DNA from: Vicingus serpentipes
GTDB taxonomy: Bacteria; Bacteroidota; Bacteroidia; Flavobacteriales_E; Vicingaceae
NCBI GenBank assembly: GCA_024103385.1
Contig: JAGFIT010000040.1
Coordinates: 1-64,000 of the forward strand
Reading direction: 5' to 3'
Length of the DNA: 64,000 nucleotides
Shown in pieces: positions 4,763-61,100 of the stretch. Position 1 is the first letter of the stretch. Each line of letters begins with the position of its first letter. Under the pieces are notes generated by a model. It was not told the DNA's origin and made no database searches. It saw only the letters and a program-made list of their open reading frames with translations. The position numbers and the translations under genes were made by a program.

Positions 4763-5809
4763 ATCAATACTAAAAAAAACATACTAATTTGTCCACTTGA
4801 TTGGGGATTAGGTCACGCTACACGATGTGTACCTATTATTAAAGAAATTCAACGTTTAGGGCATCAGGTGATTATTGGAGCGGATAAACAACCGTTAGCC
4901 TTTTTAAAACAAGAGTTTCTGGAGCTACCAACAGTTATCATTCCTGGTTATATGATAAGGTATGGTAAAAAAAGAGGCGCTTTAAAATTATTGTGGGAAG
5001 GTATTCGGTTTTATCAGTCGATTAAAAAGGAGCAAGAACTTGTTGATCAGCTACTAAAAGATAACAATATTGATTGTATCATTTCAGATAACCGATATGG
5101 TTTACGGAGTAAACAAGTAAAATCAATTATTATTACACATCAATTATTTGTTAAAACACCATTATTGAACAATTGGTTTCAGAAAAAAATCAAACAGTTA
5201 ATTACTCCTTTTGATGAATGTTGGATACCTGATGTTGAAGGAGAAGATAACTTTTCGGGAGATTTATCGCATATAAAAAAAATAGAGTTCACTCATCGAT
5301 TTATTGGACTTTTGAGTCGGTTTGAAAACTCGTCAAATGAAACCGAAAAATATGATGTTGTAGCCATTGTTTCTGGGCCAGAACCCCAGCGAAGTATTTT
5401 TTATAATTTGCTTTTAGCTGAATTTAAAAAAAATCAACTAAAAGCTGTGTTGGTTGCTGGAAATCCACAGGAATTACAGAAAACACAAGATGAAAATGTG
5501 ACGATTTTTTCGCATTTACCAACTCTTCAAATGCAAGATTTGATTGCGCAAAGTAAGGTGGTAATTTGCAGAGCGGGTTATTCGAGTATTATGGATTTGG
5601 TGGCTTTACGGAAAAAAGCGATATTAGTTCCTACTCCAGGACAACCAGAACAAGAGTATTTGGCGGATTATCATTATCAACAGGGAAATTTTTATACTCA
5701 AAACCAGAGAGAGTTGGATTTAGAAAAGGCTCTAATAGAGGTGGAACAATATGTTCCCCCATCTGTTAGTTCTAAGGCATTAGATTTGGATTTTTTAGAT
5801 TTCAAATAG
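4763..5809 (+). CDS. Glycosyltransferase of the GT28/MurG-like fold, probable ATC start
   Basis: The N-terminal Rossmann half has ICPLDWGLGHATR, the GT-B acceptor-side signature seen in Bacteroidota relatives of MurG. The C-terminal half has SGPEPQRS (about 204-211), CRAGYSS (about 269-275) and PTPGQPEQEYLA (about 290-301), matching the nucleotide-sugar binding side. The substrate is unknown. The GTG at 4868 would remove the whole conserved GLGHATR region, so it cannot be the real start. Upstream the frame is open to 4733 but contains no ATG, GTG or TTG. ATC at 4763 gives a normal N-terminus (INTKKNILICPLDW) and sits four bases after a promoter box. The resulting length is 348 residues. A base error at 4765 (ATG read as ATC) is the main alternative. 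Confidence 0.75.
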   Translation: MNTKKNILICPLDWGLGHATRCVPIIKEIQRLGHQVIIGADKQPLAFLKQEFLELPTVIIPGYMIRYGKKRGALKLLWEGIRFYQSIKKEQELVDQLLKDNNIDCIISDNRYGLRSKQVKSIIITHQLFVKTPLLNNWFQKKIKQLITPFDECWIPDVEGEDNFSGDLSHIKKIEFTHRFIGLLSRFENSSNETEKYDVVAIVSGPEPQRSIFYNLLLAEFKKNQLKAVLVAGNPQELQKTQDENVTIFSHLPTLQMQDLIAQSKVVICRAGYSSIMDLVALRKKAILVPTPGQPEQEYLADYHYQQGNFYTQNQRELDLEKALIEVEQYVPPSVSSKALDLDFLDFK

Positions 5810-5893
5810 ATGAATTAACGTTGATTTTCAGCAAACGGTGGCTGTTCTCCCCAATTTTATCTAAAATCAATATAAATAACGGGTTAAGTTACT

Positions 5894-5901
5894 TATATTT
5901 G
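5894..5901 (+). promoter_or_regulatory. -7 box for the 605-residue uncharacterised protein
   Basis: TATATTTG is a perfect TAnnTTTG match, 22 bases before the ATG at 5924. Confidence 0.5.
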
Positions 5902-5923
5902 CAGTTCGTATTTTTTATCATTT

Positions 5924-7741
5924 ATGGCAAAAACACATACATTTCAAATTCCTGTAATGGGCATAGGTTTTACAATTGACACTCCGTTGAAAGTAGCTCC
6001 TTTTGGAATTTCATCTGTTCTTTCTCTTGGGGATGATTTGCTAATAGAAAGAATGAGAGAGATGTACGTTAAAAAAATGGGGAAACCATTCACTCCTGTG
6101 CCCAAAACAGACAGTGATGGAAGAGCAAATAGAATTACCCTATATCTTAACCTAATGAATGAAATGGTTAAGAATAAATTTCAAGAATTAAAAGCAGCAT
6201 CTTTTGAAAAAGGGAGTGAGTTAACGAAGTATTTTGAAATGCTGCCTGACTTTTCTACGTTAAAGAAAGAGTATAATAGAATGAAAGAAGAAAACGATTC
6301 TTCTGTGGTAGAAAAAATACAGGGATGGCTAAAAGAAAACATGACGATGGGATCTATTGATGTGAACATCATGACTAAATTAGATAAAGCCAATTATACC
6401 AAATCAGGAGAACAATTACCCCAAATAATGAACGATGCTCACGCTGCGTTAAGAGGGTTTGCTAATAGTGATTTAAGCTCTGGAGTGGTATTATCAGCTG
6501 GGTTAAGCCCAAGGTTGTATACTTACATCTCTAATTTTGAAGATTTCTTTCCGGATGAAAAGGAGCAGTTAAAGAAAAAAGTCATTTTAAAAGTGAGCGA
6601 TTACCGTTCAGCTTTGGTTCAAGGAAAATTTTTAGCAAAGAAAGGAATTTGGGTGTCTGAATATCGAATAGAATCTGGATTAAATTGTGGGGGGCATGCT
6701 TTTGCTACGGAAGGTTATTTAATGGGACCAATATTAGATGAATTCAATAAAAATAGGAGCACTTTAATTAAAGAGGTGCATCAAATACTAAATGACGCCT
6801 TAAAAGGTTTAGGGAGAAAAGAGCTATCAAAACCACTAGATTTATTAGTTACAGCTCAGGGTGGAGTAGGTACAGTGAATGAACACAATTTACTTTTAGA
6901 TAAGTATAATGTAGATTTAGTAGGTTGGGGAACACCTTTTTTGTTGGTTCCAGAGGTGGTGAATATTGATGGAGATACGCTTGAAAAACTATCAAAAGCA
7001 ACTTGTGAAGATTTGTATTTAAGTAATATTTCACCGATAGGGGTGCCTTTTAATAGTTTAAAGGGAAATACAAAAGATGTATTAAAAGAAGAAAAAATAG
7101 CAACAGGTAAGCCAGGAAGCCCTTGTCCAAGCCAATTTTTAAAAATTTACAATACGGAGTTTACAGAGCGACCAATTTGTTTAGCTTCGAGACAGTATCA
7201 AAAATTAAAGATAGCAGAATTGGAAGCTAAAAATTTACCCGAAGAAGAACATCAAAAAGCATACGATAAAATAACAGTAAAATCATGTATTTGCGCGGGC
7301 TTGGTAATGACTCCTTATATAGAACATGATATGTTAAGAAGAGCAGATGGGGAAGGTATTTCTGTTTGTCCAGGACCAAATATGGCTTATTTTTCTAAAA
7401 AAACGACTTTACAAGAAATGGTAAATCATATTTATGGCAAGGTCAATTTGTTAAATGATACTTACAGACCCCATATGTTTATTAAGGAATTAGGGATGTA
7501 TATTGATTATCTAAAAAAAGAAATGGAAGAGTCAATAGAATTATTAAACTTAAAAAAGGTGAAGTACTTTGAAAAATTCAAGGATAATTTACTTTCAGGA
7601 ATTGAATATTATGAGGGTTTAATTAATGAAATGAAAGAGGAATCGGATCAATTTAAAAAGAAATTTAAGGAGGAATTAAATCATTTTAACGCTATGGTAG
7701 AAAGTATTCAGCTACCTACATTAGAAGAAAGCTTAACATAA
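5924..7741 (+). CDS. Uncharacterised conserved Cys-containing protein, possible flavin-type TIM barrel
   Basis: I do not recognise a characterised family. The 605-residue protein has no signal peptide. Its N-terminus (VMGIGFTIDTPLKVAPFGIS) and the later AQGGVGT (311-317) and GWGTPFLLVPE (334-344) resemble phosphate-binding turns of flavin-dependent TIM-barrel enzymes such as nitronate monooxygenase or the FMN domain of glutamate synthase. This is only a resemblance. Cysteines fall in tight glycine- or proline-rich motifs: NCGGHAFATEG (Cys255), SPCPSQF (Cys401), RPICLASRQ (Cys419), SCICAGL (Cys455, Cys457) and SVCPGPNM (Cys482). The last five could bind an Fe-S cluster. The region from about 525 is charged and helical, probably a coiled coil. 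The gene stands alone between its own promoter and a strong terminator. Confidence 0.6.
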   Translation: MAKTHTFQIPVMGIGFTIDTPLKVAPFGISSVLSLGDDLLIERMREMYVKKMGKPFTPVPKTDSDGRANRITLYLNLMNEMVKNKFQELKAASFEKGSELTKYFEMLPDFSTLKKEYNRMKEENDSSVVEKIQGWLKENMTMGSIDVNIMTKLDKANYTKSGEQLPQIMNDAHAALRGFANSDLSSGVVLSAGLSPRLYTYISNFEDFFPDEKEQLKKKVILKVSDYRSALVQGKFLAKKGIWVSEYRIESGLNCGGHAFATEGYLMGPILDEFNKNRSTLIKEVHQILNDALKGLGRKELSKPLDLLVTAQGGVGTVNEHNLLLDKYNVDLVGWGTPFLLVPEVVNIDGDTLEKLSKATCEDLYLSNISPIGVPFNSLKGNTKDVLKEEKIATGKPGSPCPSQFLKIYNTEFTERPICLASRQYQKLKIAELEAKNLPEEEHQKAYDKITVKSCICAGLVMTPYIEHDMLRRADGEGISVCPGPNMAYFSKKTTLQEMVNHIYGKVNLLNDTYRPHMFIKELGMYIDYLKKEMEESIELLNLKKVKYFEKFKDNLLSGIEYYEGLINEMKEESDQFKKKFKEELNHFNAMVESIQLPTLEESLT

Positions 7742-8472: not shown

Positions 8473-9814
8473 AATGAAAGTATTTTTTTGGATGACTTTT
8501 GTTGCTTGCCTGATGTCAACTATTACAATGGCACAATCTCTAGAAAATTCATTTACTTTAAAAGAAGCACAAGCTTATGCATTAGAGCATAATTACGGAG
8601 CACAAAATGCAAAAAAAGATGTTCTTGCAGCTAAAAAGAAGGTTTGGGAAACAACTGCAATAGGTTTGCCACAAATAGCTGCAGAAGGAACTTTTCAGAA
8701 GTTTCTGGATATTCCAGTCAGTTTAGCACCAGCTAATTCATTTAATCCGAATGCACCCGAAGGAGAATTAACAGAGCTTCAATTTGGTTTGGAGTACAAT
8801 AATTCTTTAGCCTTGTCAGCTTCCCAACTCATATTTGATGGATCTTATATTGTAGGTTTACAAGCCGCAAAAACATACAAAGAGTTATCCATTAACAATC
8901 AAATTAAAACAGAAATAGAGTTAAAAGAAGGAGTAGCTCAAGCATACTACACGGTATTGATAGCAGAAGAAAACACCAAAACACTTACGTTATCTTTAAG
9001 TACACTTCAATCCATGTTAAAAGAAGCAGAAGCGCTATATAGTGAAGGATTAGTTGAGGAGCAAAATGTAGATCAACTAAAGCTGAATGTCAATGAATTA
9101 ACAACTGCTGTAGGTATTGCTAAAGGACAAATCGATTTTGCAACTAAGTTATTACAACTTCAAATGGGAATGGACATCGGTACGCCAATGCTGTTGACAG
9201 ATAACTTGGATACTTTTATTGGAGAACTTACAACACCAATAGTTACGCAAGAATTTAAAGTAGAAAATCATATTGATTATACCTTGATTACAACTAACAC
9301 AAGGTTAATGCAGCTTAACCATAAGAAAGAAAAATTTTCCTTTTTACCCTCAGTAAATTTATTTTTTAATCATCAACAGCAAAACATGAATAACAAATTT
9401 GACGCATTTAGTGGGGGGAAGTATTATCCTGCTACTGTTGTTGGAGCTTCTGTTAGATTGCCTATTTTGACTAGTGGTTCTCGATTAGCAAAAATGAGTC
9501 AGGCTAAAATAGAATGGGAAAAAGCATTAAATCAACAAAAAGAAGCAGAACAAGGACTGATTTATAAATCTCAATTAGCTAATTCTAACATGGAAACGGC
9601 TCATGAAACCTATCTCAATCAAAAAGAGAATATGGAATTGGCAAAAAAAATACATGATAAAACAGTAAAAAAATATAATGAGGGGATGGTATCTAGTATG
9701 GAGTTATCACAAGCTCAAAACCAATATTTAACAGCTGAAGGAAAATATATAAAGTCATTACTGGATTTGTTTACAGCAAAATCAGAATTAAAAAAATCAT
9801 ATGGAAATGAATAA
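8462..9814 (+). CDS. TolC-family outer-membrane efflux protein
   Basis: A signal peptide (hydrophobic core about 7-23, ending MAQ) precedes two repeated helical segments typical of OEP/TolC proteins, for example the N-terminal FTLKEAQAYALEHN and the C-terminal KKYNEGMVSSMELSQAQNQY. The 450-residue length is normal. It would form the outer-membrane exit duct of the tripartite pump encoded by the next two genes. The ATG at 8462 overlaps the end of the tetR-like gene by 11 bases. The ATG at 8474 (fifth codon) gives a cleaner signal peptide and a one-base gap and is an equally plausible start. Confidence 0.9.
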   Translation: MIFKMKVFFWMTFVACLMSTITMAQSLENSFTLKEAQAYALEHNYGAQNAKKDVLAAKKKVWETTAIGLPQIAAEGTFQKFLDIPVSLAPANSFNPNAPEGELTELQFGLEYNNSLALSASQLIFDGSYIVGLQAAKTYKELSINNQIKTEIELKEGVAQAYYTVLIAEENTKTLTLSLSTLQSMLKEAEALYSEGLVEEQNVDQLKLNVNELTTAVGIAKGQIDFATKLLQLQMGMDIGTPMLLTDNLDTFIGELTTPIVTQEFKVENHIDYTLITTNTRLMQLNHKKEKFSFLPSVNLFFNHQQQNMNNKFDAFSGGKYYPATVVGASVRLPILTSGSRLAKMSQAKIEWEKALNQQKEAEQGLIYKSQLANSNMETAHETYLNQKENMELAKKIHDKTVKKYNEGMVSSMELSQAQNQYLTAEGKYIKSLLDLFTAKSELKKSYGNE

Positions 9815-9836
9815 TCAGAATAACACATTAATTAAG

Positions 9837-10973
9837 ATGAAAAAAGCAGTAATATACTTAGTCGGGGCAATTTTTTTGGTTGCGTGCGGATCTTCAGAAA
9901 TAAATGAAAATGTTGCTCAATTACAACATAAAAAAGATTCCTTAAAGTTAGTCTATACTGACATTGCAAAGGCAATTGAAGCAATTGATGAGCAGTTGAA
10001 AGCGCTAGATACAACTGTTCAACTGCCTTTAGTAACTGTCAATACAATAGAACAAAAAATGTTTGAGCATTTTGTTGAGGTGCAAGGAGAAGTTGAAGTA
10101 GGCGGAAATGCTTTAGTGTATCCTGAAGTTCCTGGAAATATAATGAGTATCCGTTTTAAAGAAGGAGATAAGGTAAATAAAGGAGATTTGATGATTCAAT
10201 TGGACGCAAGTACTTTGTCATCAACAATAAAAGAGGTGGAAACAAATTATGTTTTAGCTAAAGATATATTTGAAAAACAAGAACGTTTGTGGAAGGAAAA
10301 AGTGGGATCAGAAGTACAATATTTACAAGCTAAAACCAATAAAGAAGCTTTAGAACAAAAACTCATTACATTAAGAAAACAATTGGATATGTACGCTATT
10401 AGAGCCCCTTTTTCTGGGGTGATAGATGAAATCAATCCAAAAGTTGGAGAGGCTGTTAACCCCGCTTTTCCAGCGGCAAGGGTTATCAATTACAACGATA
10501 CTTACTTAAAAGCAGATGTGTCTGAGAATTACATCTCCCTCATTAAAGAAGGAAATAAAGTGACTGTTCTTTTCCCTTCTCTTCATAAAGAGCGTATTAC
10601 TAAAATTGCTAGAGTAGGTAATTTTATTAACCCTAATAACAGAACATTTAAAATTAATATTGATTTAAATGATTTTAAAGAAGGTTTAAAACCAAACTTG
10701 TTAGCAGATATTAAAATAAGAGACTTTGTAGAAGATACTGCTATTGTTATTCCTTCTAGCATTATTCAACAGGATAGGCAAGGGAATGAATATATCTACT
10801 TGATGGAACAACAAGGGAAGAAAAAAACGGCTAAAAAAACAACCATTACAACTGGTCTTTCTTATCAAGGAAACACTATTGTATTAACTGGATTAAAGGG
10901 AGGAGAAAAGTATATTGATAAAGGCGCAAGAAGTATTCAGGATGGAGAATTAGTTGAATCAGTGAAAGAATAA
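9837..10973 (+). CDS. RND periplasmic adaptor (HlyD/AcrA-type membrane fusion lipoprotein)
   Basis: With the start at 9837 the protein begins MKKAVIYLVGAIFLVAC, a lipoprotein signal with lipidated Cys17. A start at 9801 is also open but would place twelve extra residues before the signal and overlap the TolC gene. A short coiled coil (about 30-60) is followed by the lipoyl/barrel-sandwich halves (VYPEVPGNIMSIRFKEGDKV and IRAPFSGVIDEINPKVGEAV), an alpha hairpin between them, and beta-barrel and membrane-proximal domains. It would link the TolC channel to the RND pump. The position between those two genes fits. Confidence 0.92.
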   Translation: MKKAVIYLVGAIFLVACGSSEINENVAQLQHKKDSLKLVYTDIAKAIEAIDEQLKALDTTVQLPLVTVNTIEQKMFEHFVEVQGEVEVGGNALVYPEVPGNIMSIRFKEGDKVNKGDLMIQLDASTLSSTIKEVETNYVLAKDIFEKQERLWKEKVGSEVQYLQAKTNKEALEQKLITLRKQLDMYAIRAPFSGVIDEINPKVGEAVNPAFPAARVINYNDTYLKADVSENYISLIKEGNKVTVLFPSLHKERITKIARVGNFINPNNRTFKINIDLNDFKEGLKPNLLADIKIRDFVEDTAIVIPSSIIQQDRQGNEYIYLMEQQGKKKTAKKTTITTGLSYQGNTIVLTGLKGGEKYIDKGARSIQDGELVESVKE

Positions 10974-47451: not shown

Positions 47452-47490
47452 AAAAAAAGGAGTCTAGAATTTTTCTAGACTCCTTTTTTT
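47452..47490. terminator. Bidirectional terminator with a perfect 18-bp stem
   Basis: Bases 47452-47469 pair perfectly with 47473-47490 across a TTT loop, giving AAAAAAAGGAGTCTAGAA and its complement. It serves the convergent YceI and adenylate cyclase genes; its last two bases fall in the cyclase stop codon region. Confidence 0.88.
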
Positions 47491-50400
47491 ATTTATATAA
47501 TTTATACCTTTCTTGAATCTCAGCTAATCGAGCATTTTTATTTTCTCTTCTTAATGCAATAGCTGTTTTCGTAAAATAAGTATGTTGTTTCAAAAATTTA
47601 ATTTGTAACTCGTCCCATTCTTTATCTGTAGATACCATATTTCTATCCATCAATTCCCTTTTAAGTTTATCAGCAATAATGTAAAACTCATCTCCTCCCA
47701 AATAATCTAAATCAGCATCACAAAGAATTTCTTCTAAATGATTACTCGGTTTTTGAGGAACTTTAGTAGCTTGTATTAATTTTCCTATCGTTTCTATTTG
47801 TTCTTTTGTGTATCCAAAACGAGGTAACACTTCTTGAGCTAATTGAGCACCAATATCTTCGTTGTTGGAATATTGATGAACAAATCCTGCATCGTGATAA
47901 AGTGCCGCTGTTTTTAGTAAAAAAATGTCATCTCCTTCAATTCCTTCCATTAGTGCTAATCGTTCAACTGCAGCACAAACATCAGTGGTATGCCTCAAAT
48001 CATGATAAAATAAATTATCGGGCAATTCTTTTTTAAGTCGTTTTACAATGTATTTTTCTGCCTTCCGGTAATTAATTCCACTGTATATATGCAGGTCAAC
48101 ATACTTTTGGAATAATTCATTAGGGACAACACCTTCTCCGTTTATTGAAAGTTCAGGTTTAATGGCGTGCACAAAGTACATGTCAATCTTTCCCTTGTTT
48201 TTGGCTTTAATTTCACCTCTGTATTCACAGGTAAAAAATTCTTTAACCAATTCATAAGTAGCTCCAGAAATGTTCACTTTTCCTACATCTCCAGCAGCTT
48301 CAATTCTACTGGCAATATTTACACTATCCCCCCAAATATCATAAGCAAACCTTTTTATACCAACAACTCCAGCAATTACTCCTCCTGTATGAATACCAAT
48401 ACGTAATCCCCATCCTTGATGCCCTTTTTCTTCTTTTTCTTTATTGTATTTCAGCATAAATCGTTGTATCTCTAATCCCGCTAAAACGATGTCTATGGGG
48501 TTACTTTTATTTCTTAAAGGAAGTCCTCCGGCACACATGTACGCATCCCCAATAGTTTTAATTTTCTCTACGTCATATTTTTGAATGATTTCATCAAAGT
48601 TTTTAAAATAATAGTCTAATTCCATTACCAAATCAACAGGATTTATTTTTTCGGCAATTTGAGTAAAGCTCTTAAAATCTGTAAACATGATAGAAGCCAT
48701 TCGATATTGCCTAGCTGTTGCTTTTCCTTTTGTTTTGAGCTCTTCTGCTGTTTCTACAGGTAAAACATTAAATAAAAGTTCATCTGCTTTATCTTTTTCA
48801 AGTTGTAACAATTCTTTTTGTTTAATTACTTCATGGGTACGTTCTCTAACCTGTACTTCCAAAAGTTGTTTTTGAGAGGTAATACGATTAATCCGTGAAA
48901 TGTAATAAGTGTAAATAAGTGTTAGAATAGCAATAATAAAGAGCACTCTAAACCACCATGTTTCCCATAAAGGAGGTTCTACAATTACTTTGACTTGCGC
49001 AATTTCATCACTCCAAATACCGTCACTATTTGCAACTTTTACCTTAAAAATATATTCACCAGGATCGAGGTTGGTATAATTAGCTCTTCTTTGATTATCG
49101 ATATAAACCCAATCTTCATCAAAGTTTTCTAATTGATAGGCATGTTTATTTTTTAGAGGATAGGAATAATGTAATGATGCAAACTCAAAAGAAATAACAT
49201 TTTGTCTATATTTTAAGACAACCTCACTTACTTTAGAAATACTGCGTTTTAAAATAGAAGATTCACCAACCCCAACGGGTTTATTAAACAAATAAAACTG
49301 AGTTATAATGGGTTTCGCTTTTGTTGTATTAACGTTTATATCTTCTGGATAGAAGATATTAAAGCCATTAATCCCTCCAAAGAACATTTGTCCAGAAATG
49401 GATTTATAATAAGCACCGATGTTAAACTCATTACTTTGTAAACCGTCACTTTCCTCATAATTTTTAAATTGAGAGGTTTGTGTATTAAAAGAAGAAATTC
49501 CTTTGTTGGTACTTATCCATAAGTTATGTTTTTTATCTTCCAGAACTCCGTAAATTACATTGTTGGCTAACCCCTCTTTTTCTGTGTATTGTGTAAATTG
49601 TTTTGTTTTAGGATTAAACTTATTGAGCCCTCCACCAAAAGTTCCTAACCATAAATTACCATCAGCAGCTTGCATAATAGAAGATATATTGTTACTACTT
49701 ATTGTATTTAATTTATCAGGATTGTTTTGATAAACCTCAAAATTCAGCTGCCCATTTTTATCAATTACTTTACACAAACCTCCCCCGTGGGTTCCTAACC
49801 ATATATTCTTTTCTTTATCAATATGTATAGCTTTAACTATATCATTAGGAAGTCCTTCTTCAGTAGAGTAATGGTGCATTGTTTTACGATTTTCATCGAT
49901 AATTAATAGCCCTTGTTTTGTGCCTACCCAAAGTCGATGTAAATGATCTTCAGTGATAGTGTAAGTTCGGTCTTCGTTGAGGTGATTTTCATGATCTGTA
50001 ATATGAATCATTTGTCCATTATTAACAAAAAACACCCCTCCATCGGTGCCTAAGAAAATTTCATTATTACTGTCTTGATATATAGCGTATACGCTACTGT
50101 TTTTATTAACGGCAGTAAACGAAAAATTAGGAGTAAGTGAATGTACTTTCCCACTAGTACTACTAAATATATTTACACCTTTTTCTGTCCCAACCCATAA
50201 TTCTTTAGTGTTGCTTTGAAATATTGCCCAAACCATATTGCTGCTAATAGTGTTTGATTTATTAGACCAATGCTGATGGTGTTTAAAATATTGTTTTTGT
50301 TTATCAAACTTATTTAATCCCGATTGCGTTCCTATCCAAATAATACCAAATACATCTTCATATATCGTATTTATTTTATTACTAGTTAAGCTAGTATTTC

Positions 50401-51295
50401 GACTAGCATCGTAAACGTAATGGTCTGCATTTCCATTCAATTTTAATTTGTACAAGCCATTATTTTCCGTGCCAATCCATATCATTCTTGATTGATCTTC
50501 GAAAATGGTTTTAATAGCTTCATCTCCTAGTATTTTATCTAATCTAAGGGCGGATTTGATTTCTCTATTTTCTATATCGAAAAAATTAATTCCTTTATTA
50601 GTAGCAATTCTTATTTTCCCTTCGGAATCTTTATGGATATCCCAAACAATATCACTTTTTAGTAAACTATTACCTGCATAATATTGTTCAGATTGCTCTG
50701 TGTTAATATTGTATGAAATAATTCCATTTCCTTCCGTAGCAATCAAAAGCAAATCTTCCTTTACGAAGAGTAATTTTCTTATTTCTATTTGTTTAGTAGA
50801 ACTACTTATTTGTAGATGGATTTTTTTGAATTCGTGGTTTTTTTTATTGATTTTAAATAACGCTTTATCTGTTCCTGCCCATAACATGTTATTGGTGTCA
50901 TTAACTAAGCACCAAACATTGGTTTTTCCAGTTTTTGCATTAAAAATATTAGTAAATGATTGAGTTGCTGTATTAAAATAATTAAGCCCATTTTCTGTCC
51001 CTACCCATAATACACTATCATTTTCTTCCATAATAGTGTGAATAAAATTGTTGGAAATAGAAGTGGAGTCTAAAAGATCGTGAGAATAAATATTAAATTT
51101 AAAACCAGTGTAAGAGTTGAGTCCATCCTGAGTACCAAACCATAATAATCCATTAGTGGTTTGTATTATAGATAACACATCACTTTGAGAAAGACCTTCT
51201 TTGATACCAATATGATCAAACTTGATACTGGTTTGTTGGGCAGTTGTGGTATTTACAATAAATACGGTTAATAGAAAGAAAAGGAGTTTTTTCAA
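47489..51295 (-). CDS. Propeller-sensor adenylate cyclase fused to an HD phosphohydrolase-type domain
   Basis: A 1268-residue inner-membrane signalling protein starting with TTG at 51295. Domains in order: signal peptide (1-20); about 14 propeller motifs of the W.GT..GL type (about 40-650), enough for two seven-bladed propellers as in hybrid two-component sensors; Y_Y_Y domain (about 690-772); one TM helix (about 780-800); coiled coil (803-845); class III cyclase (about 860-1045); HD domain (about 1060-1210). Cyclase metal ligands are Asp873 and Asp917. Lys913 and Asp986 occupy the adenine-specifying positions (Glu and Cys in guanylate cyclases). Asn993 and Arg997 are the transition-state residues, so ATP is the predicted substrate. 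The HD motif (HDLRH at 1098-1102, HD at 1134-1135, CDADLD at 1192-1197) is intact. It lies 4 bp after the PorE-like gene. Confidence 0.9.
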   Translation of the reverse strand: MKKLLFFLLTVFIVNTTTAQQTSIKFDHIGIKEGLSQSDVLSIIQTTNGLLWFGTQDGLNSYTGFKFNIYSHDLLDSTSISNNFIHTIMEENDSVLWVGTENGLNYFNTATQSFTNIFNAKTGKTNVWCLVNDTNNMLWAGTDKALFKINKKNHEFKKIHLQISSSTKQIEIRKLLFVKEDLLLIATEGNGIISYNINTEQSEQYYAGNSLLKSDIVWDIHKDSEGKIRIATNKGINFFDIENREIKSALRLDKILGDEAIKTIFEDQSRMIWIGTENNGLYKLKLNGNADHYVYDASRNTSLTSNKINTIYEDVFGIIWIGTQSGLNKFDKQKQYFKHHQHWSNKSNTISSNMVWAIFQSNTKELWVGTEKGVNIFSSTSGKVHSLTPNFSFTAVNKNSSVYAIYQDSNNEIFLGTDGGVFFVNNGQMIHITDHENHLNEDRTYTITEDHLHRLWVGTKQGLLIIDENRKTMHHYSTEEGLPNDIVKAIHIDKEKNIWLGTHGGGLCKVIDKNGQLNFEVYQNNPDKLNTISSNNISSIMQAADGNLWLGTFGGGLNKFNPKTKQFTQYTEKEGLANNVIYGVLEDKKHNLWISTNKGISSFNTQTSQFKNYEESDGLQSNEFNIGAYYKSISGQMFFGGINGFNIFYPEDINVNTTKAKPIITQFYLFNKPVGVGESSILKRSISKVSEVVLKYRQNVISFEFASLHYSYPLKNKHAYQLENFDEDWVYIDNQRRANYTNLDPGEYIFKVKVANSDGIWSDEIAQVKVIVEPPLWETWWFRVLFIIAILTLIYTYYISRINRITSQKQLLEVQVRERTHEVIKQKELLQLEKDKADELLFNVLPVETAEELKTKGKATARQYRMASIMFTDFKSFTQIAEKINPVDLVMELDYYFKNFDEIIQKYDVEKIKTIGDAYMCAGGLPLRNKSNPIDIVLAGLEIQRFMLKYNKEKEEKGHQGWGLRIGIHTGGVIAGVVGIKRFAYDIWGDSVNIASRIEAAGDVGKVNISGATYELVKEFFTCEYRGEIKAKNKGKIDMYFVHAIKPELSINGEGVVPNELFQKYVDLHIYSGINYRKAEKYIVKRLKKELPDNLFYHDLRHTTDVCAAVERLALMEGIEGDDIFLLKTAALYHDAGFVHQYSNNEDIGAQLAQEVLPRFGYTKEQIETIGKLIQATKVPQKPSNHLEEILCDADLDYLGGDEFYIIADKLKRELMDRNMVSTDKEWDELQIKFLKQHTYFTKTAIALRRENKNARLAEIQERYKLYK

Positions 51296-51299
51296 CGTT

Positions 51300-53603
51300 C
51301 TATTTTAATTTAATCACTTTAAACACAGTCCGTCTGTTTTTAGCTCTTCCTTCAGGGTTATCTTTTCCATTAGGAAATTCATTTGGAGCAACAGGTTGAG
51401 TTTCACCGTATCCTTTTGCTTTAATTCTGTTTTTATCGATTCCCTTACTTACCACATATTCTACCGCTTTTTCTGCCCTTTGTTGAGACAATTCCATATT
51501 ATAGGAATCACTTCCCTTAGAATCAGTATGAGAGCTTAATTCCACACCAATATCTTTGTTCTTTTTCAAAATTAAAACCAACTTGTTTAATTCTTGTGCT
51601 GCTAACTCATTAATTTCTGCGGAGCGATATTCATATAACACTTTTGAAATGATAAAGTTTTCATTTTCTGCAATTTTAATAACTTCATCAATTTCGTTAA
51701 TCAGCGTAATTACACTTTGATCAGAAGCTAACCTTATGTAACGATATTTTCCATCTATCAATCGTTTAGCTGCTTCTAATACATTCCCGTTTTCATCAGT
51801 AATGATAATGTTAAATTTTTCATCATCCTCTGAAAGCATAAATAAATACTGTTCATCTGGAGATAATTTATCAAATGAAAATTTACCAAACTTATCTGAC
51901 TTGGCTTTACCAATAATATTACCTTCATCATCAACTATCCAAACATCCATTCCTCCTGAATAGTCTCCTGGTAGTTTACTATAAACTTGACCAAAAACGC
52001 TTACTGTAAATAAGCTTTCATCTTCTTCTTTGAGTAATTCTAACTCATCATAATATTCGAAAGGTAAAGCTTTAATTCTGAATTTTCCTTTACTAATATT
52101 ATTGGCTAACAACACTTTTTCTCCTTTAGAATTAGTAATATATAGTTTTGAGTTTTCCAGTTTACTATCATCTTCTTCGTCCAATCGTATTAGGTAATTT
52201 TGATCTAATCCTAGTTTGTCAAATTTAAATTTTCCATATTCATCCGTAATGGCAGATTGTACTACATTATCATTTTCATCTAACAGACTCATATTTACCC
52301 CTGCAGCTGCTAATTTATCGTATTCAATAACTCCTGTTATTGACGTTTGAGGAATTAAAGCATGCCATGAGAAGCTATATATATCATCGCTCCCAACTCC
52401 TCCGTCTCTGTTGGATGAAAAATATCCACTTTCATCATCTTTATAAAAGATGCCAAAATCATCTTTAGAAGAGTTTAAAGGAGATTTAAGGTTCTCTGGA
52501 TTTTTCCACTGCTGACTTTCTTCTACACGATAAATATCTAATCCTCCATACCCAGAGTGACCTTCAGAAGAGAAATACAAAATACCTTTTCGGAAATACG
52601 GGAAAACCTCATTTTCAGGAGTATTAACCTCTTTTCCTAAGTTAATAGGCTGTCCCCAAGAATCTCCATCCTTTATGCATAGATAAATATCCATTCCGCC
52701 CATTCCTCCAGGCATATCGGAAGCAAAAAATAATTTTTTTCCATCTTCAGAAATCCAAGGATGTGCTACAGAGTAATTGGTGTTGTTATGAATAAAAGGA
52801 GTAATGTTTTTCCATTTTTTATTTTCTAAGGTTGCAGTAAATATTTTTAAGCGGTTAACATAGCTTTTTCCTAACTCCTTCTTTTCTACACGTGTAAAAT
52901 AAATGGTTGTTTTATCTGACGAGATAGATACAGGGCCATCATGGTACAGCGAGTTTAATTGAGAGGAGAACTTTTTTGCTTTCTTAAAGTCTTTATCTTT
53001 TTTAGCATAAAAAATGGACAAATAAGGTTTGCTAGATAAACCATATTGAGATTCATTAATCAAATCAATTCCTCTTTCTGAGACAAAGACTAAGCCGTCT
53101 TCATATACTAAAGGACAAAAATCGGCATCTTTTGTATTAATATTCTGAACGTTGGTTACTTCAAATGCTTTTTCCTCAACTTCCCAATTTTTAATATCCT
53201 TACATGATTGAACCATTAATTTTCCAATAAAACTATTAGGTTCTTTAGCAACAAATTTTTCAAATTGAATTTTAGCATCAGCAATTTTATTGTTGTTTTT
53301 TAAAGCTTGGCCATAATATAAATAATTAGAGCTTTCTGTGGGGTTTAATTCTGTGGCTTTTGCATAATACTTTTCCGCATTATTATAATCTTTTAATTTT
53401 CGATAAGAGAAAGCAATCTTCTGAGTTGCTTCTTGATTAGAGGGTGTTTTTTTTAATATTTTTTCATAGTTAATAATAGCATCATGATATTGTTCTAAAT
53501 CGAAGTAAGAGTTAGCTTTTTTTATTTGACCGAACAAATAACTATTTGTGAATAATATTACTATTATTACAAGTTTCACTTTCTGTATGATTTCTTTAGT
53601 CAT
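51300..53603 (-). CDS. PorE-like protein: TPR, propeller, CRD-like repeats and OmpA domain
   Basis: A 767-residue secreted protein. The signal peptide (to about 26) is followed by TPRs (about 30-130), a PD40/WD40-type propeller (about 150-420; repeated DGKKLFFASDMPGGMGGMDIY and ILYFSSEGHSGYGGLDIY), two or three carboxypeptidase-regulatory-like beta domains (DEYGKFKFDKLGLDQNYLI, SDKFGKFSFDKLSPDEQYLF), and a C-terminal OmpA peptidoglycan-binding domain (VELSSHTDSKGSDSYNMELSQQRAEKAVEYV...NRRT). This order equals that of the T9SS protein PorE, which anchors the machine to peptidoglycan. It is probably a PorE paralogue working with the PorP/SprF-like protein 7 bp upstream. Confidence 0.88.
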   Translation of the reverse strand: MTKEIIQKVKLVIIVILFTNSYLFGQIKKANSYFDLEQYHDAIINYEKILKKTPSNQEATQKIAFSYRKLKDYNNAEKYYAKATELNPTESSNYLYYGQALKNNNKIADAKIQFEKFVAKEPNSFIGKLMVQSCKDIKNWEVEEKAFEVTNVQNINTKDADFCPLVYEDGLVFVSERGIDLINESQYGLSSKPYLSIFYAKKDKDFKKAKKFSSQLNSLYHDGPVSISSDKTTIYFTRVEKKELGKSYVNRLKIFTATLENKKWKNITPFIHNNTNYSVAHPWISEDGKKLFFASDMPGGMGGMDIYLCIKDGDSWGQPINLGKEVNTPENEVFPYFRKGILYFSSEGHSGYGGLDIYRVEESQQWKNPENLKSPLNSSKDDFGIFYKDDESGYFSSNRDGGVGSDDIYSFSWHALIPQTSITGVIEYDKLAAAGVNMSLLDENDNVVQSAITDEYGKFKFDKLGLDQNYLIRLDEEDDSKLENSKLYITNSKGEKVLLANNISKGKFRIKALPFEYYDELELLKEEDESLFTVSVFGQVYSKLPGDYSGGMDVWIVDDEGNIIGKAKSDKFGKFSFDKLSPDEQYLFMLSEDDEKFNIIITDENGNVLEAAKRLIDGKYRYIRLASDQSVITLINEIDEVIKIAENENFIISKVLYEYRSAEINELAAQELNKLVLILKKNKDIGVELSSHTDSKGSDSYNMELSQQRAEKAVEYVVSKGIDKNRIKAKGYGETQPVAPNEFPNGKDNPEGRAKNRRTVFKVIKLK

Positions 53604-53610
53604 TTCTTAA

Positions 53611-54525
53611 TTAAAAATATCTTGGTGAAACAACTTTTGATTTAAATAAACTAACATCATATCCTAGAAAAAATTCTATCGATCCTGAAGAAGAATTAGC
53701 AACATCATTTGCATCAAGATCATAAGCCAATCCCATTCTCAATTTTTTTGATAAATTAATTTCGGATAGTAAAATCAAGGCATTTCTTCTCAATGAAACT
53801 CCAAATAAGAATTTATTCTTAAACAATAACCCACTATTTAGATCTGCGCTGGCACTAGTACCAGACATTCTCACTAAAAGAGAAGTCTTTAGCACTACAT
53901 TGTCATTTAAGATAAAAGCTTTCCCAACAGTTAATTTTGAATTAGCATATTTTTTAGCAGTACTATTTGTGGTATCGACACTTATCAAGTTATACTTTGC
54001 TTCATTAAGGTGTTCAGTAGAGAGCCCTAAATAAAAGGTATGGGTGTTATAATAAATTCCAAAATCAAAAGAGGGAATCATAAAACTATTGGATGCTGTG
54101 GTCGGAATGGCGTCATCTTGTTCTTTGTATTCAATTTTACCCCAATTATAGTTGTAGTTAATTACTCCTCCACTTAACCCAAATGCCAATTTTCCTCCTC
54201 CTAATTTTAAACGATATGCATAAGTCCCTTTTAATAACTGGGTTGTTTTTGGACCTATTTTATCGCTAACGATTTGTAATCCAACGCCCATGTTTTTGTT
54301 TTTTAATGGTGTGTTGATGGCGAAAGATTGTGTTTCGGGAGCACCGTCTAATCCAATCCATTGACTACGATGAATTAATACAGCACTTAATAATTCTCTA
54401 CTTCCAGCATACCCAGGATTAACACCTAAAGGGTTGAACATATATAAACTGTACTGAGGATCTTGTTGAGAAAAGCTCATTAGTGCTTCAACAAAGAATA
54501 GTATTGAAAGTAGTATTCGTTTCAT
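53611..54525 (-). CDS. PorP/SprF-family T9SS outer-membrane protein
   Basis: A signal peptide (to about 19, SFSQ) precedes QDPQYSLYMFNPLGVNPGYAGSRE, the defining N-terminal motif of PorP/SprF proteins. Then follows a 14-strand type outer-membrane beta-barrel (alternating hydrophobic strands such as LAFGLSGGVINYNYNWG). SprF-like proteins are specific partners that pass type-B cargo such as SprB through T9SS. It probably serves the type-B cargo protein encoded just upstream (54622-55365), with the PorE-like protein downstream. It starts a tight three-gene unit with the PorE-like protein and the cyclase. Confidence 0.9.
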   Translation of the reverse strand: MKRILLSILFFVEALMSFSQQDPQYSLYMFNPLGVNPGYAGSRELLSAVLIHRSQWIGLDGAPETQSFAINTPLKNKNMGVGLQIVSDKIGPKTTQLLKGTYAYRLKLGGGKLAFGLSGGVINYNYNWGKIEYKEQDDAIPTTASNSFMIPSFDFGIYYNTHTFYLGLSTEHLNEAKYNLISVDTTNSTAKKYANSKLTVGKAFILNDNVVLKTSLLVRMSGTSASADLNSGLLFKNKFLFGVSLRRNALILLSEINLSKKLRMGLAYDLDANDVANSSSGSIEFFLGYDVSLFKSKVVSPRYF

Positions 54526-54621: not shown

Positions 54622-55365
54622 TTACCTAGTCAATTCAACCCATCCTTTATAAGTTTTTCCACTCACTTTTGCAATATAGAAATAAGTGGCATCAGCCATT
54701 TCTTCGTTACTATTACTATTTCCTTCCCAAACTACATTTTTATTATCATAATTTTCTCCAAACCAGATTTCTCGACCCCAACGGTTAAAAATTTGTACTG
54801 TATTTTCAGGAAACAATTCAATATTGTCTATCCACCAAACATCATTTATCCCATCACCATTGGGAGTAATTCCTGAATAGAACTTTAAAACACAATTTTC
54901 ATCACTATCTAAACCAACATTAAGTGTGGTTGAGTATGAACATCCTGAAGATCCTAAAACTAGTATATCGTAATCTCCAGCACTTAGCGTGTCGGCACCT
55001 ATTTCAATAGAATCTCTTGTAGCTCTGATGATTAATTTATAAGGTCCAGGACATCCTAAGACATTATCAATATAAATAGAACCATTTTTTGCACCAACGC
55101 ATGATTCATTGATTATTTCGTAATCGAGAATAGAATCACTGGTAAGTTGAGGTTGTTGAAAACCTTGGGTAAGAATAATAGTTGATGTAGAAAAAAGAGT
55201 TTGTGTTACAGCTTCACCAACAGTTGAAGATAATGAAATGGTTGTTCCTGTAGTATGCCCTCCTGTGCTTCCAATCACTTGACGGTCTAATTGGATTTGG
55301 GAATAGGAATAGTTGGAGGCCAATAGGACAATAAGTGTTGTATATATTTTAATAGACTGTTTCAT
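54622..55365 (-). CDS. Short T9SS type-B cargo protein
   Basis: A 247-residue secreted protein with a signal peptide (to about 22, YSYS). The first domain (QVIGSTGGHTTGTTISLSSTVGEAVTQTL...LTQGFQQP) is a common small beta module in Bacteroidota surface proteins. A short SprB-like segment (CVGAKNGSIYIDNVLGCPGPYKL) and the type-B sorting domain follow (YSGITPNGDGINDVWWI...IFNRWGREIW). Unlike other cargos it has little beyond the sorting domain. It may act as an anchor or stalk for the two fibre-like proteins encoded 14 bp upstream in the same direction. Confidence 0.82.
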   Translation of the reverse strand: MKQSIKIYTTLIVLLASNYSYSQIQLDRQVIGSTGGHTTGTTISLSSTVGEAVTQTLFSTSTIILTQGFQQPQLTSDSILDYEIINESCVGAKNGSIYIDNVLGCPGPYKLIIRATRDSIEIGADTLSAGDYDILVLGSSGCSYSTTLNVGLDSDENCVLKFYSGITPNGDGINDVWWIDNIELFPENTVQIFNRWGREIWFGENYDNKNVVWEGNSNSNEEMADATYFYIAKVSGKTYKGWVELTR

Positions 55366-55379
55366 AGTAGTTTAAAGAG

Positions 55380-58139
55380 TTAGTCTGCTTGAGTTACTGT
55401 GTAGGTAAGCTTAGCTCCATATAAACGAGAATCTTGACTATTTTGCCTACCTGTGAACATTAAGAAATAAGCATAATTTTGATTGTCAATAGTAGCGTTT
55501 GCAATTGTCCCATCTGTTAAGTTTTGAACACTTGCTAGAGATGTTGCTGATAATGATTCTACTTCAGCCATTTGAGCAACAACATCACTCCCTAATTGTT
55601 GTCTATACAAAGTAACACGTACAGGATTTGTGGATAAATTATCCCATATCCATGCTTCTAAATTTGTAATAACAGCACCGTCAGGGAGGTTAACTCCTAC
55701 TGTAGCATAACCAAAGGCTGTTCCTCCAGATCTAAAGTAAGTGTAATAATCTGCAGCTAAATAAGTCCCAAAACTGTAGACGTCAGGAAGTAATGCCCTA
55801 AAAGCAGTTGGAGCATAGCTTTGGTAATGTGTTTTTACTGCTTCATAGGTATATTCTCCATCTACTTGTATGCTTCCTCCAGCATCTATATCTAATTTTT
55901 CTGATGGGGTAGTTGTTCCTATCCCTACATCTCCTGTTGAAGAAATAACCATTCTATTTGCACCGTTTGTTCCTAAATATAACGGTGAGTTTTCTCGATT
56001 TAAAATTCCCGCACTACTGCTATTAATATAAAAAGCTAATCCATCAGTAGAATTTACTCCTGTCGCAGTTCCTGCGGATATTCTAAGAGTTCCTTGAGAA
56101 TTTGATGCATCATTAATATGTAAATTAGATGTGGGGGCAGAGATTCCGATACCTACATTACCCCCCATAAATCGGAAATTTCCAGCACCATCACCATCAA
56201 TGAATAAATTAGCTCCAGCACCACCTCCGTCAATATCACCAAGTGTAACATTACGACCATTAACTTCTAGTGATCTATCTCCTCCTGAAGACTCCCTTAC
56301 CTCAAATTGTACGGTGGGGTTGGCAGAATTTATTCCAATAAATCCATTGTCAAGCACACTGAATACGGCTTGCCCAGCGTAATTTCCAATATCTAATAAA
56401 CGATCAGAAGGAGAAATATTAATATCGTGTATGTGTAGTAAGGCATTAGGATTGCTAGTTCCTATTCCGACATTTCCCGCGTTGGTGTTGTATATATCAA
56501 TTCCGTTAGGAGACCAAGAAACAGTAGGAATAATCGGCAATGGTCTCCATTCTGCATTTCCAGCAGCATCCATAGATGTTAATACGGAACCTATGGCAGG
56601 AGCAGTTCCACTCATGTTTTCTAAAAGAAGTGTGCCTGAAAGATGAAAACGAGCAGAAGGAGCACTAACACCTATACCTACATTAGCATTATTGCCAAGA
56701 ACTAGTGAGTTGTTGGCAGAAACGGAAGTATTTGCACCAATTGCTGTAGCATTAATTAAGTCTGATGCTGTAGCATCAGCATTATATCCTAAGAAGGTAT
56801 TGCTACTACCTGTTGTAATAGTCTTCCCAGCATTTTTTCCAATAGCAGTGTTATTTCCACCACTAGTTAATTGACTTCCTGAATAAGCACCTAAAAGTGT
56901 ATTGTTTAGTGCATCTGCAGCATTAAAACCTGCTTGAGCACCTATCATGGTATTATCTGATCCTATAGTGTTTTTGTTACCAGCATACCTTCCAACAAAT
57001 GTATTTCTTGTTGGAGTAGTGGTATTTTGGCCAGCTCCTTCTCCTATAAATGTGTTGTAATTCCCTGATAACCCAGTATTCATAGTTCTTCCCAGTAATG
57101 TGCTATTAGATACATCATCAATAAAAGGAGTACCACCTAATCGATATAGTGTAGAAGAATTTACATCACCTAATACATCCAGTTTATATGAGGGCGTTGT
57201 TCCTACTCCTACATTCCCAGTATTACTGTTACTTAAATCATTTCCATTTATGACCCAATCGTTATCATTTAAATCAGATAAAGGAAAAGCATGACCTACA
57301 CCAGCTTCTACGATAATGATACTATCGTTTGTTGCATTTAAAGAAAAAGTGGTAATTCTCTCATTATTCGGGTCAGAATCTGCATCATTTATGTTGTCAG
57401 TTGAATTGATAATGAAATTAGGGTAGGATCCAGAAATTACAGTTGCTCCCGCTCCTGTTATTGTAACCATCTGATCTGGAGCGGTATTGGTTATTATGTT
57501 TCCAGTTAAATCTATCCCTGATCCTGCAGTATATGACCCTGCAGCTCCAGTAAGCCCAATTGGACCTTGTATCCCTTGGGGACCAATCGGACCAGCAACA
57601 CCACTGTCTCCTCTGCAATCTAAGGCATCCCATGCACCATCATTATTTCTATCTTCGCTAGCATCTTTAATTCCATTTCCATTAAGATCCCAACAGTTCA
57701 ATCCATTTGTTCCAGGTGTTCCTGTTGAAGCTGTCCCTGCATGCAGGGCATAGGGAACAGAGAGTAATTGTGTTGCTCCCATAGGGTCTCCATTTACTTC
57801 AACATATAAATAGTAAGAACCGGAACTCCAATTGATAGTAGAAAAATTGGAAAGGACAAAAGGAGCATTAGGGCTTCCTCCTCCAATAGTAGACGTAAAT
57901 AGCCCAAATTGATTGGTTGTTGGAGTATGTGTTTCAGCGTAAACGGCAGAACCTGTTCCAGAACTTGATCTAATCTCAAAAACAACGGTTAGAGGAGAGC
58001 TTATTATAGGGTTACCTGATAAATCTCTAGCAATTGCTTGATAATTTATTTTTTGTGGAGCTTGAGCGTTTGCTTGCTTTGGCAAGGATACATTTATACT
58101 CAGAACTATTGTGATGAATAAAATTAGTTTATTTTTCAT
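55380..58139 (-). CDS. Fibre-like surface protein with collagen-like and head repeats
   Basis: The start at 58139 gives a clear signal peptide (MKNKLILFITIVLSINVSL); an ATG at 58166 would overlap the upstream gene. Domains: the Bacteroidota N-terminal module (APQKINYQAIARDLSGNPI...LLSVPYALHA, about 28-140); a Ca-loop-like DLNGNGIKDASEDRNNDG; a short collagen-like run (GDSGVAGPIGPQGIQGPIG); a series of ~23-residue repeats with NTFIG..AG / NTLLGAYSG patterns like heads of trimeric adhesins and phage tail fibres; VGIG...P.A.LH linkers; and a C-terminal beta domain (LRGAKLTYTV-like end). No T9SS sorting signal is seen. Probably a trimeric surface fibre. Confidence 0.8.
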   Translation of the reverse strand: MKNKLILFITIVLSINVSLPKQANAQAPQKINYQAIARDLSGNPIISSPLTVVFEIRSSSGTGSAVYAETHTPTTNQFGLFTSTIGGGSPNAPFVLSNFSTINWSSGSYYLYVEVNGDPMGATQLLSVPYALHAGTASTGTPGTNGLNCWDLNGNGIKDASEDRNNDGAWDALDCRGDSGVAGPIGPQGIQGPIGLTGAAGSYTAGSGIDLTGNIITNTAPDQMVTITGAGATVISGSYPNFIINSTDNINDADSDPNNERITTFSLNATNDSIIIVEAGVGHAFPLSDLNDNDWVINGNDLSNSNTGNVGVGTTPSYKLDVLGDVNSSTLYRLGGTPFIDDVSNSTLLGRTMNTGLSGNYNTFIGEGAGQNTTTPTRNTFVGRYAGNKNTIGSDNTMIGAQAGFNAADALNNTLLGAYSGSQLTSGGNNTAIGKNAGKTITTGSSNTFLGYNADATASDLINATAIGANTSVSANNSLVLGNNANVGIGVSAPSARFHLSGTLLLENMSGTAPAIGSVLTSMDAAGNAEWRPLPIIPTVSWSPNGIDIYNTNAGNVGIGTSNPNALLHIHDINISPSDRLLDIGNYAGQAVFSVLDNGFIGINSANPTVQFEVRESSGGDRSLEVNGRNVTLGDIDGGGAGANLFIDGDGAGNFRFMGGNVGIGISAPTSNLHINDASNSQGTLRISAGTATGVNSTDGLAFYINSSSAGILNRENSPLYLGTNGANRMVISSTGDVGIGTTTPSEKLDIDAGGSIQVDGEYTYEAVKTHYQSYAPTAFRALLPDVYSFGTYLAADYYTYFRSGGTAFGYATVGVNLPDGAVITNLEAWIWDNLSTNPVRVTLYRQQLGSDVVAQMAEVESLSATSLASVQNLTDGTIANATIDNQNYAYFLMFTGRQNSQDSRLYGAKLTYTVTQAD

Positions 58140-58155
58140 AACATATTTTTTTATT

Positions 58156-61100
58156 TTAATCGGCATATACTAAATGACCACTAAAAGATGATTTATCTAA
58201 ATATAAACTCATTGAGCCGCTATTGTTTAAAACTTCTATCCAAATTCTTTCCCCTGGTCCTAAATGGATTGTTGCTGCTAAGTTAGCACTATACCAACTT
58301 TGCCCGATGGAGCTAAAAAAACCATCTTCTTCAGTAATAACATTACCAGAGTTGTGCACCATTTTGATTGTAAAGTATCCTGCGTCAGCTCCTTGAAATA
58401 CTGCATTTAAATCAAAGTGGTATACTCCTTTTACGGGAGCGGTAAAATATCCAGTAGTAGGGTTAAATCCTCCGCCATGATTGAAATCAAATACTCCACT
58501 TCCATCGAATAGTAGAATAGTGGAGGTTCCTATTGTAATGGTTTGTTGGCTGGATGCTGCATCACTTCCAGTAAAAAAACTTATTTGATTCGGTTGCCAA
58601 GAAGCATCACCACTAGCGTTTGAAACCAATATTTTTCCAGTTCCTTCTGTTCCATCTTTTAGTTGAAATGTTCCTTCTACATCTAGTCTTGCGGAAGGGC
58701 TAGATGTTCCAATACCTATATTTGCGCCACTTCCTAAAACTATTGCGTCACTAATATTAACGGTTGCATTATATCCTATTGCAGTAGCATTGGTTAAGTT
58801 TCCAGATGAAAATCCAGCATTATAACCTAATGCCAGATTATAATAACCAGTTGTATTATTTTGTCCTGATTCACCACCAACAAAAGTATTTCGATATCCT
58901 GTGGTATTGCCTAACCCAGCATTTCTACCTAGAAAAGTGTTGTAAGAACCAGAAGTACTATTTGCTCCTGACTGCTCTCCAACGTACGTGTTGAAACTAT
59001 TAGTGTTACTTGTTCCAGCATAATAACCTATGAGTACATTTGAACCTCCTCCAGAACCATAAGCTCCAGCATCTCTACCAATATAAGTATTGTTTGTTCC
59101 AGTTATATTTCCATTTCCAGCATTACTTCCAATAAAAGTATTCCATGTGCCTGTATTATTTTGTCCTGCAGTTGATCCGAAAAATGTATTCCCATTATTA
59201 TAATCAATCCTTCCTGCGAGTAAGTTATTAACTTTAAAGTTTAGCGGAACATTGTCTGTTGTACCTATAAAATGAGTAGCATCTGTTGTTCCTCCATTTC
59301 CATTAATACTCCATCTAGTAATATCTTTAGGAGCTTGCCAAGTAACGTTGCCTGAAGCATCAGTTGTCATTACATCTCCAGAAGTGGTACCATCAGAGGA
59401 AGGTAAGTTATACGGATTAGCTCCATCATCAATTCTCAATGTTCCATTGTAAATGTGTAATTTCTGAGAAGGAGTTGTTATGCCCAAACCTACTTTTCCA
59501 AATCCGTCAACATTCACAAAGTCTGTTAACCCAGCTCCAGTAGCATCTGCACCACCTTTTAAGTGAAAGCCTAAATTATCAACATTTAGTTCCCAATCAA
59601 AAGCCAAAGAGTTTGTTCTCTCTAATCGGAATGTAGTTGATGTAGGGTTAGCAATAGTTAACAATTGTTGAGGATTGGGAGTTCCTATTCCAACTTTTCC
59701 TAGATTATCTATCCTAACCTTTTCTGAATTATTGGTATAGAATAACATGTTACCATTTTCAGCATTATTAAAATAAGCATCACTAGAACTAATTCCTAAA
59801 TAAACGCCATCGTTGGCTAAAGTATCAGACATAGAATTTGTGAATCTTGCAAACGTGTTTAACGTAGGCGTATTTACCTCTAAGGCATTTAAAGGAGTAT
59901 TTATTCCAATCCCTACGTTTCCGGTGTTAAAAAAGATATCAGACCCATTGGGTTTCCATGTACTACTACCTGCTAGGAGTGAAGGGTTTTTCCACACCGC
60001 TTGCCCAAATCCGTCATTTGCCAATACCCAGTTGAGGTTATTTACGTTTTTCCCTAAAACATATAAAGAATCAGTTAAAAAAGAACCTTGATTAACATTG
60101 ATAACCTGACCTCCAGCAGAATAATTAAAGATAGTATCTATTTCATTATAGATTCGTTTAGTTTGATTAAGAATCAGGTCTTGTGCAACAGTTCCAACAG
60201 TATTTCCATATAAAACAGTTGAGCTATCAGCAACAATGACTATGTGTCCACCAACAGTAGAATTAGATAGAAAAAAAGTTTTATTTGAAGGATCCATAGC
60301 CACAATACCTGAGTCGGATCCTGTAAGAAAAATTGCTCCTGTTGTCGCATTTGGATTAAGTCCTCTAACTGTTATTGCAGCAACATCAGCATTTGAACTT
60401 ATAAAATTTGAAATAATAGAATCAGTAGAAACCACCGATAATTTACTATTTGGATTAACTGTTCCGATTCCGACATTACCTGTAACACTACTACTTAGGT
60501 CATTTCCTGTAATTACCCAATCATTATCTGAAGTTGCCGTGGGTAATTTTATGAAGCCTCCATTTGTTAAAAAGATAGTATCGTTACGAAGACTTAGGGT
60601 TTGTATCTCATTTGTTGATGAAGTGTCATTTATATTGGTAGCTCCTGTAGCCCCGTTACAAACAAAAAAAGAACTCGAAACCTCTCCAGTCTCAAGAATA
60701 GTGTTAGCATTAGCATCTAACCCCATTAAAACTTGATATCCTCCATTAGGACATGAACTCCCCGCGTCAAGAGTGTCTATTAAACTGTTAAATCCTTGTG
60801 CACCAGTAGCAGCAGATTTAGCAAATAAGGCATAAGGGACGGAAAGTAATTGCGAAGTACCTAAATCTTCAAAGCCTAATCCAGCATCTACCTCTACTTG
60901 TAAATAATAAGCTCCAGCTCCCCAGTTGATAGCAGAAAATGTAGCATTATTTATACTTCCTAATTCTAAATTAATTAGACCAAATTGGTTTGTGCTAGTT
61001 GAAGATGATGGATGGGTTTCTTGAAAAACAATTGCTCCTGTTGTAGACGCTTGATGAATAGTAAAGCGAATGGCAACAGCTTGGTTAGATAGCGGCAACC

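Follow-up and report, generated by a model that had tools for sequence, protein, structure and literature searches.

Both synthesis and hydrolysis of a cyclic nucleotide have been assayed for the combined adenylyl cyclase and phosphodiesterase (CAPE) proteins of streptophytes, such as MpCAPE (PMC5159850, PMC8115329). In the 64,000-nucleotide stretch of Vicingus serpentipes DNA analyzed here (the window), one gene encodes a protein of similar plan, a single membrane-associated chain carrying a class III adenylate cyclase and an HD-superfamily domain that we predict to be a cyclic-nucleotide hydrolase. It departs from CAPE in that the cyclase comes first here and the phosphodiesterase (PDE) first there, in its propeller ectodomain, in an HD domain from a short bacterial family rather than PF00233, and in being known from sequence alone. 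The solved Bacteroides hybrid two-component sensors (PDB 4a2l and 3v9f) share its Reg_prop propellers, Y_Y_Y domain and one transmembrane (TM) helix, whereas its output is a class III cyclase and an HD domain instead of a histidine kinase. HD-PycTM proteins of Bacteroidota carry a homologous HD domain (~30–37% identity) with the same metal-site residues, but there it lies N-terminal to a membrane effector, with no cyclase on the chain and, often, none of class III anywhere in the genome. YpgQ-type HD hydrolases (PDB 5dqv and 2pq7), for which we know of no cyclase link, share the fold and the H...HD...D site; YpgQ itself hydrolyzes dNTP and NTP (PMC8177086). Among the titles and abstracts covered by our literature search, there was no report of a propeller-cyclase, a bacterial cyclase-HD fusion, HD-PycTM or a link between the type IX secretion system (T9SS) and cAMP.

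The gene (47489–51295, minus strand, as are its parts and the genes of the T9SS-type cluster given below; assigned from the ORF call, Pfam and orthologues) encodes 1,268 aa and starts with TTG, and sister genomes have TTG or GTG at the same position. A signal-peptide-like N-terminus, recognized from hydropathy and sequence (residues 1–20; 51236–51295), leads into the periplasmic propellers and Y_Y_Y domain (residues 21–779; 48959–51235), a single TM helix placed by hydropathy (about residues 781–802; 48890–48955) and a signaling coiled coil (about residues 803–860; 48716–48889), which is helical in the predicted model and weakly matches HNOBA. The class III cyclase domain follows (residues 861–1043; 48167–48715), and a linker and the HD domain complete the chain (residues 1045–1268; 47492–48163). 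Pfam recovers Reg_prop in 11 stretches (E 2e-46), Y_Y_Y at residues 710–772 (E 8e-18), Guanylate_cyc PF00211 at residues 861–1043 (E 1.6e-50; 171.7 bits against a cut-off of 21.9) and HD PF01966 at residues 1101–1195 (E 6.7e-5, improving to 5.5e-6 in a search of that region by itself), the last also exceeding its curated cut-off. The ectodomain resembles 4a2l (E 4e-115) and 3v9f (E 2e-83). HisKA, HATPase and receiver domains have no Pfam match in the 1,268-aa protein, which places it outside the hybrid two-component sensors; its Reg_prop repeats, Y_Y_Y domain and one TM helix are those of a propeller/Y_Y_Y one-component receptor.

These results agree with the original prediction of one polypeptide joining a periplasmic sensor with a Y_Y_Y domain and one TM helix, a cyclase and an HD domain, and with its numbering of the cyclase and HD residues; they also confirm, by profile and by predicted fold, that the C-terminal region lies inside the HD superfamily. 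Its figure of about 14 propeller motifs is only partly recovered, as Pfam gives 11, and fourteen blades remain plausible from the solved relatives, which we take to have that number. Beyond that prediction lie the wide spread of propeller-cyclase and cyclase-HD proteins in the phylum, the kinship with Pycsar effectors and the T9SS operon, which offers the best clue to what the protein senses. A chance fusion or assembly artefact is ruled out by the recurrence of the same architecture in other genomes of the order and outside it.

The cyclase domain retains the two metal-binding aspartates (D873 and D917), the adenine pair (K913 and D986) and the N993/R997 pair; the roles of these positions in class III adenylate cyclases (metal binding, adenine recognition and the transition state) are established. 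All 75 fused homologues keep K913, D917 and N993; D986 is present in 74 and D873 in 73, and R997 is kept in 68 and replaced in 7. Because these residues are kept and the chemistry of the family is known, there are strong grounds to predict cAMP as the product. Residue tables over the homologues rule out a degenerate cyclase or HD domain.

Proteins joining a cyclase to a propeller or to an HD domain are found widely in Bacteroidota. A six-frame search found HD relatives in all 46 genomes covered from the same GTDB order, 45 of which have PF00211 class III cyclases; in 28, the window genome included, the cyclase-HD fusion is the sole class III cyclase found. Two forms occur in the order, one of ~1,270 aa with the propeller and one of ~515 aa with just a TM helix and coiled coil ahead of the cyclase, and named relatives extend through Vicingaceae, Crocinitomicaceae and related genera (Brumimicrobium, Fluviicola and Lishizhenia), Bacteroidales and Chlorobiota metagenome-assembled genomes. 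Within the genus, the HD domain is as conserved as the cyclase (79–84%), and most propellers stand at 55–64%.

The case for the fused HD domain handling a cyclic nucleotide rests most strongly on the co-occurrence of its stand-alone and fused forms with cyclases. Among 395 genomes of the phylum, a class III cyclase is present in 48 of the 53 with such a form versus 157 of the 342 others (Fisher p 2e-10, kinship among genomes being ignored). In Bacteroidota, the HD family appears in propeller-cyclase-HD, GAF-cyclase-HD and TPR-cyclase-HD fusions, and well-supported branches of the HD tree require the cyclase fusion to have been gained or lost three times or more. The genes also lie together as separate units: the HD gene overlaps a propeller-cyclase gene at locus L058, and a cyclase gene directly precedes the HD gene in the same way in G017, G019, G024, G026 and G028, all of the same genus. 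Elsewhere, the HD gene comes just after a TPR-cyclase gene (L181), or a TPR-HD gene adjoins a receiver-cyclase gene (L190). Proteins of HD-PycTM length show no such link, with a class III cyclase in 42 of 73 genomes and none found in the other 31 (G070, G102, G129 and others). Because of those 31 genomes, cAMP is not the substrate of the HD family as a whole, and because the HD-PycTM-length proteins lack the link, we limit the claim of cyclic-nucleotide handling to the fused and stand-alone forms. In the cyclase-free genomes, any signal reaching the HD-PycTM-length proteins would come from elsewhere. In a few cases, the HD family has other fusion partners, a YitT/DUF2179 membrane protein and a PrmC-type methyltransferase (L184, 1483–2943; L048, 5364–6833).

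The window genome itself has a free 192-aa HD gene (L073, 6938–7516; C70), flanked by genes that we take from their sequences to be HisS-like and ABC-F-like. In G016, the same interval (L058) holds the propeller-cyclase gene and then the HD gene; in the window genome, the cyclase is missing from it and the HD gene is intact. Retention of this orphan fits an enzyme that would act on a diffusible product. Models for known cAMP phosphodiesterases (PF02112 and CpdA) matched their positive controls and nothing in the window genome; a PF00233 search also returned none there, a weak absence given that it returned none in the control genomes either. Seven stretches of cNMP-binding domain in the window genome are possible receivers of cAMP.

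With moderate confidence, we predict from these sequence comparisons that the HD domain hydrolyzes a cyclic nucleotide. The fold and profile evidence also bears on a different reading, namely that the domain is a nucleotidase like YpgQ or YfbR acting on NTP or dNTP, pyrophosphate-bearing nucleotides or AMP, and so adjusting the supply of substrate or product beside the cyclase. The AlphaFold2 model (pLDDT 96) is helical and the H...HD...D motif is present, both features of the superfamily; its best match in a fold search is YpgQ (E 1.8e-4), followed by an uncharacterized HD hydrolase and then human PDE5 and PDE4 (TMq 0.54–0.64). That search does not separate YpgQ from PDE4 and PDE5, and the predicted fold stands between those of the nucleotidase and the human cyclic-nucleotide PDEs. 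A sequence search of solved structures with the HD region alone gave no match; with profiles, HD hydrolases whose substrates are unassigned (such as 2pq7, Lin1889 and YedJ) rank ahead of class I PDEs (E ~6e-4 in a broad HD alignment), again in keeping with a nucleotidase. On the other side, the first HD motif, YH[DNGS]xxHTxDV, resembles the YHNxxHAxDV of PDE4-type enzymes. We do not class the domain as a class I PDE, because PF00233 has no Pfam match in the 1,268-aa protein, and HD relatives give only weak PDEase_I matches (14.9–18.7 bits against a cut-off of 24.8). A nucleotidase would make the repeated pairing with class III cyclases and cNMP effectors hard to explain, and we consider it an unlikely, if serious, account. 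The original suggestion that the HD domain removes the signal therefore stands in part: the cyclase fusions and operons, co-occurrence, intact metal site, PDE-like fold neighbors and failure to find a recognized cAMP phosphodiesterase in the genome favor it, but the sequence tests do not identify the substrate and the nearest solved fold is a (d)NTPase.

Alternatively, the domain could be mainly regulatory or nucleotide-binding, sensing cAMP or a metal and gating the cyclase without turnover, an allosteric role that would fit a domain placed after the cyclase in the chain. Retention of the HD region without its metal ligands is indeed seen in second cyclase-HD proteins of 614–625 aa from Bacteroidales and Chlorobiota (L175, L177 and L178), the only broken copies among 81 homologues. 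In the remaining 78, the ligands are intact (H1098, H1102, H1134, D1135, E1146, D1193 and D1195 are each kept in 78 to 81 of the 81), and the domain also exists as a free gene, kept in the window genome where its neighbor cyclase is missing; a mainly regulatory role seems to us improbable. Each broken copy has, ~3–4 kb away, a shorter cyclase-HD neighbor whose HD domain is intact; in proteins of this shorter type, cyclase residues are sometimes changed (D873N in L172, D873E in L174 and D986E in L178), which looks like a division of labor. A very improbable reading places the protein in an anti-phage (Pycsar-type) pathway, with the HD domain as a cNMP handler common to cyclase and effector. Homology to the HD domain of HD-PycTM effectors and a PADLOC PycC match to the cyclase domain (2e-13) point that way, but the PycC match spans the generic cyclase fold only, the adenine-selecting residues are of the standard kind, the gene occurs throughout the order and shares an operon with T9SS genes, and the one other HD relative found in the window genome is the free gene of 192 aa rather than an HD-PycTM. 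Membership of a Pycsar defence system was rejected for the locus itself, whose neighbors are T9SS-related and other genes with no adjacent PycTM or PycTIR effector. A possible Pycsar-type system was seen elsewhere, at L039, where an HD-PycTM effector gene (5423–6634) lies ~2.6 kb from a PycC-like cyclase gene (9218–10324).

The genes upstream offer a candidate input. A single P. gingivalis complex contains PorE, PorP and the type-B CTD protein PG1035 (PMC9143113). The cyclase-HD gene is the last of a conserved T9SS-type cluster that encodes comparable components: a small T9SS type-B CTD (CHU_C) protein (54622–55365; TIGR04131 and PF13585), the first gene of the cluster; a PorP/SprF family membrane protein (53611–54525; TIGR03519, E 2.5e-71, above cut-off, and PF11751); and, 4 bp upstream of the cyclase gene, a PorE-like TPR/PD40/OmpA protein (51300–53603). 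The P. gingivalis complex as described includes no cyclase, and the PorE-like protein matches CHU_0125_OmpA (8e-131) and T9SS_PorE (1e-106) under the curated cut-offs of both.

This linkage of type-B CTD, PorP-like and PorE-like genes to the receptor is kept in order across much of the group. Of the 32 order loci that could be tested, 28 have a PorE-like gene upstream (overlapping or no more than 105 bp away in 25) and 24 have a PorP-like gene there; the linkage of both persists at order loci without the propeller, and the T9SS operon is absent at four order loci. Outside the order, T9SS neighbors were sought and mostly not seen, and they are absent from the Crocinitomicaceae homologues. At L059, L062 and other loci of the propeller-less form, the upstream PorE-like OmpA protein is ~350 aa longer, with extra repeated segments. 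Adjoining the operon in the window is a gene for a large protein with collagen-like GPxG repeats (55380–58166), which weakly matches Bdellovibrio chimeric trimeric fibre proteins. Because of the conserved operon and the P. gingivalis complex, we propose that surface or secretion status may be what the sensor reads, a suggestion of weak to moderate strength.

Taken together, we think it fairly probable that this is a self-limiting one-component receptor that makes cAMP and breaks down a cyclic nucleotide. In such an inner-membrane receptor, which would both make and break cAMP, the propeller/Y_Y_Y ectodomain would sense periplasmic or cell-surface state, its likeliest input being the PorE-like/PorP-like/type-B CTD surface complex or its cargo. 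The one TM helix and the coiled coil would determine the subunit arrangement of the class III adenylate cyclase, a homodimer converting ATP to cAMP. The C-terminal HD domain would be a phosphohydrolase requiring metal, with 3',5'-cyclic-nucleotide phosphodiesterase its most likely activity, and could keep the signal local and short-lived or set the net output according to input. More doubtful, and offered tentatively, is the fuller proposal that a bifunctional cAMP synthase/phosphodiesterase receptor reads the T9SS surface complex to give a self-limiting cAMP pulse and that its HD domain founds a Bacteroidota hydrolase family shared by cyclases and Pycsar-type effectors.

To our knowledge, cAMP signaling in Bacteroidota has been little described. 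The cyclase-HD receptor is a real, conserved and apparently unreported bacterial arrangement, best read by analogy as a bacterial counterpart of plant CAPE if its HD domain cleaves cAMP. In that case, a single receptor would combine synthesis and removal of a second messenger, and a function would be assigned to a widespread HD family whose members also occur fused to Pycsar effectors. The T9SS operon provides a concrete candidate for the input and, with it, a possible path for a second messenger to link surface secretion with gene control. The presence of this sensor in a conserved cluster with surface-secretion genes in marine Bacteroidota suggests that the signal is self-limiting and linked to the cell surface.
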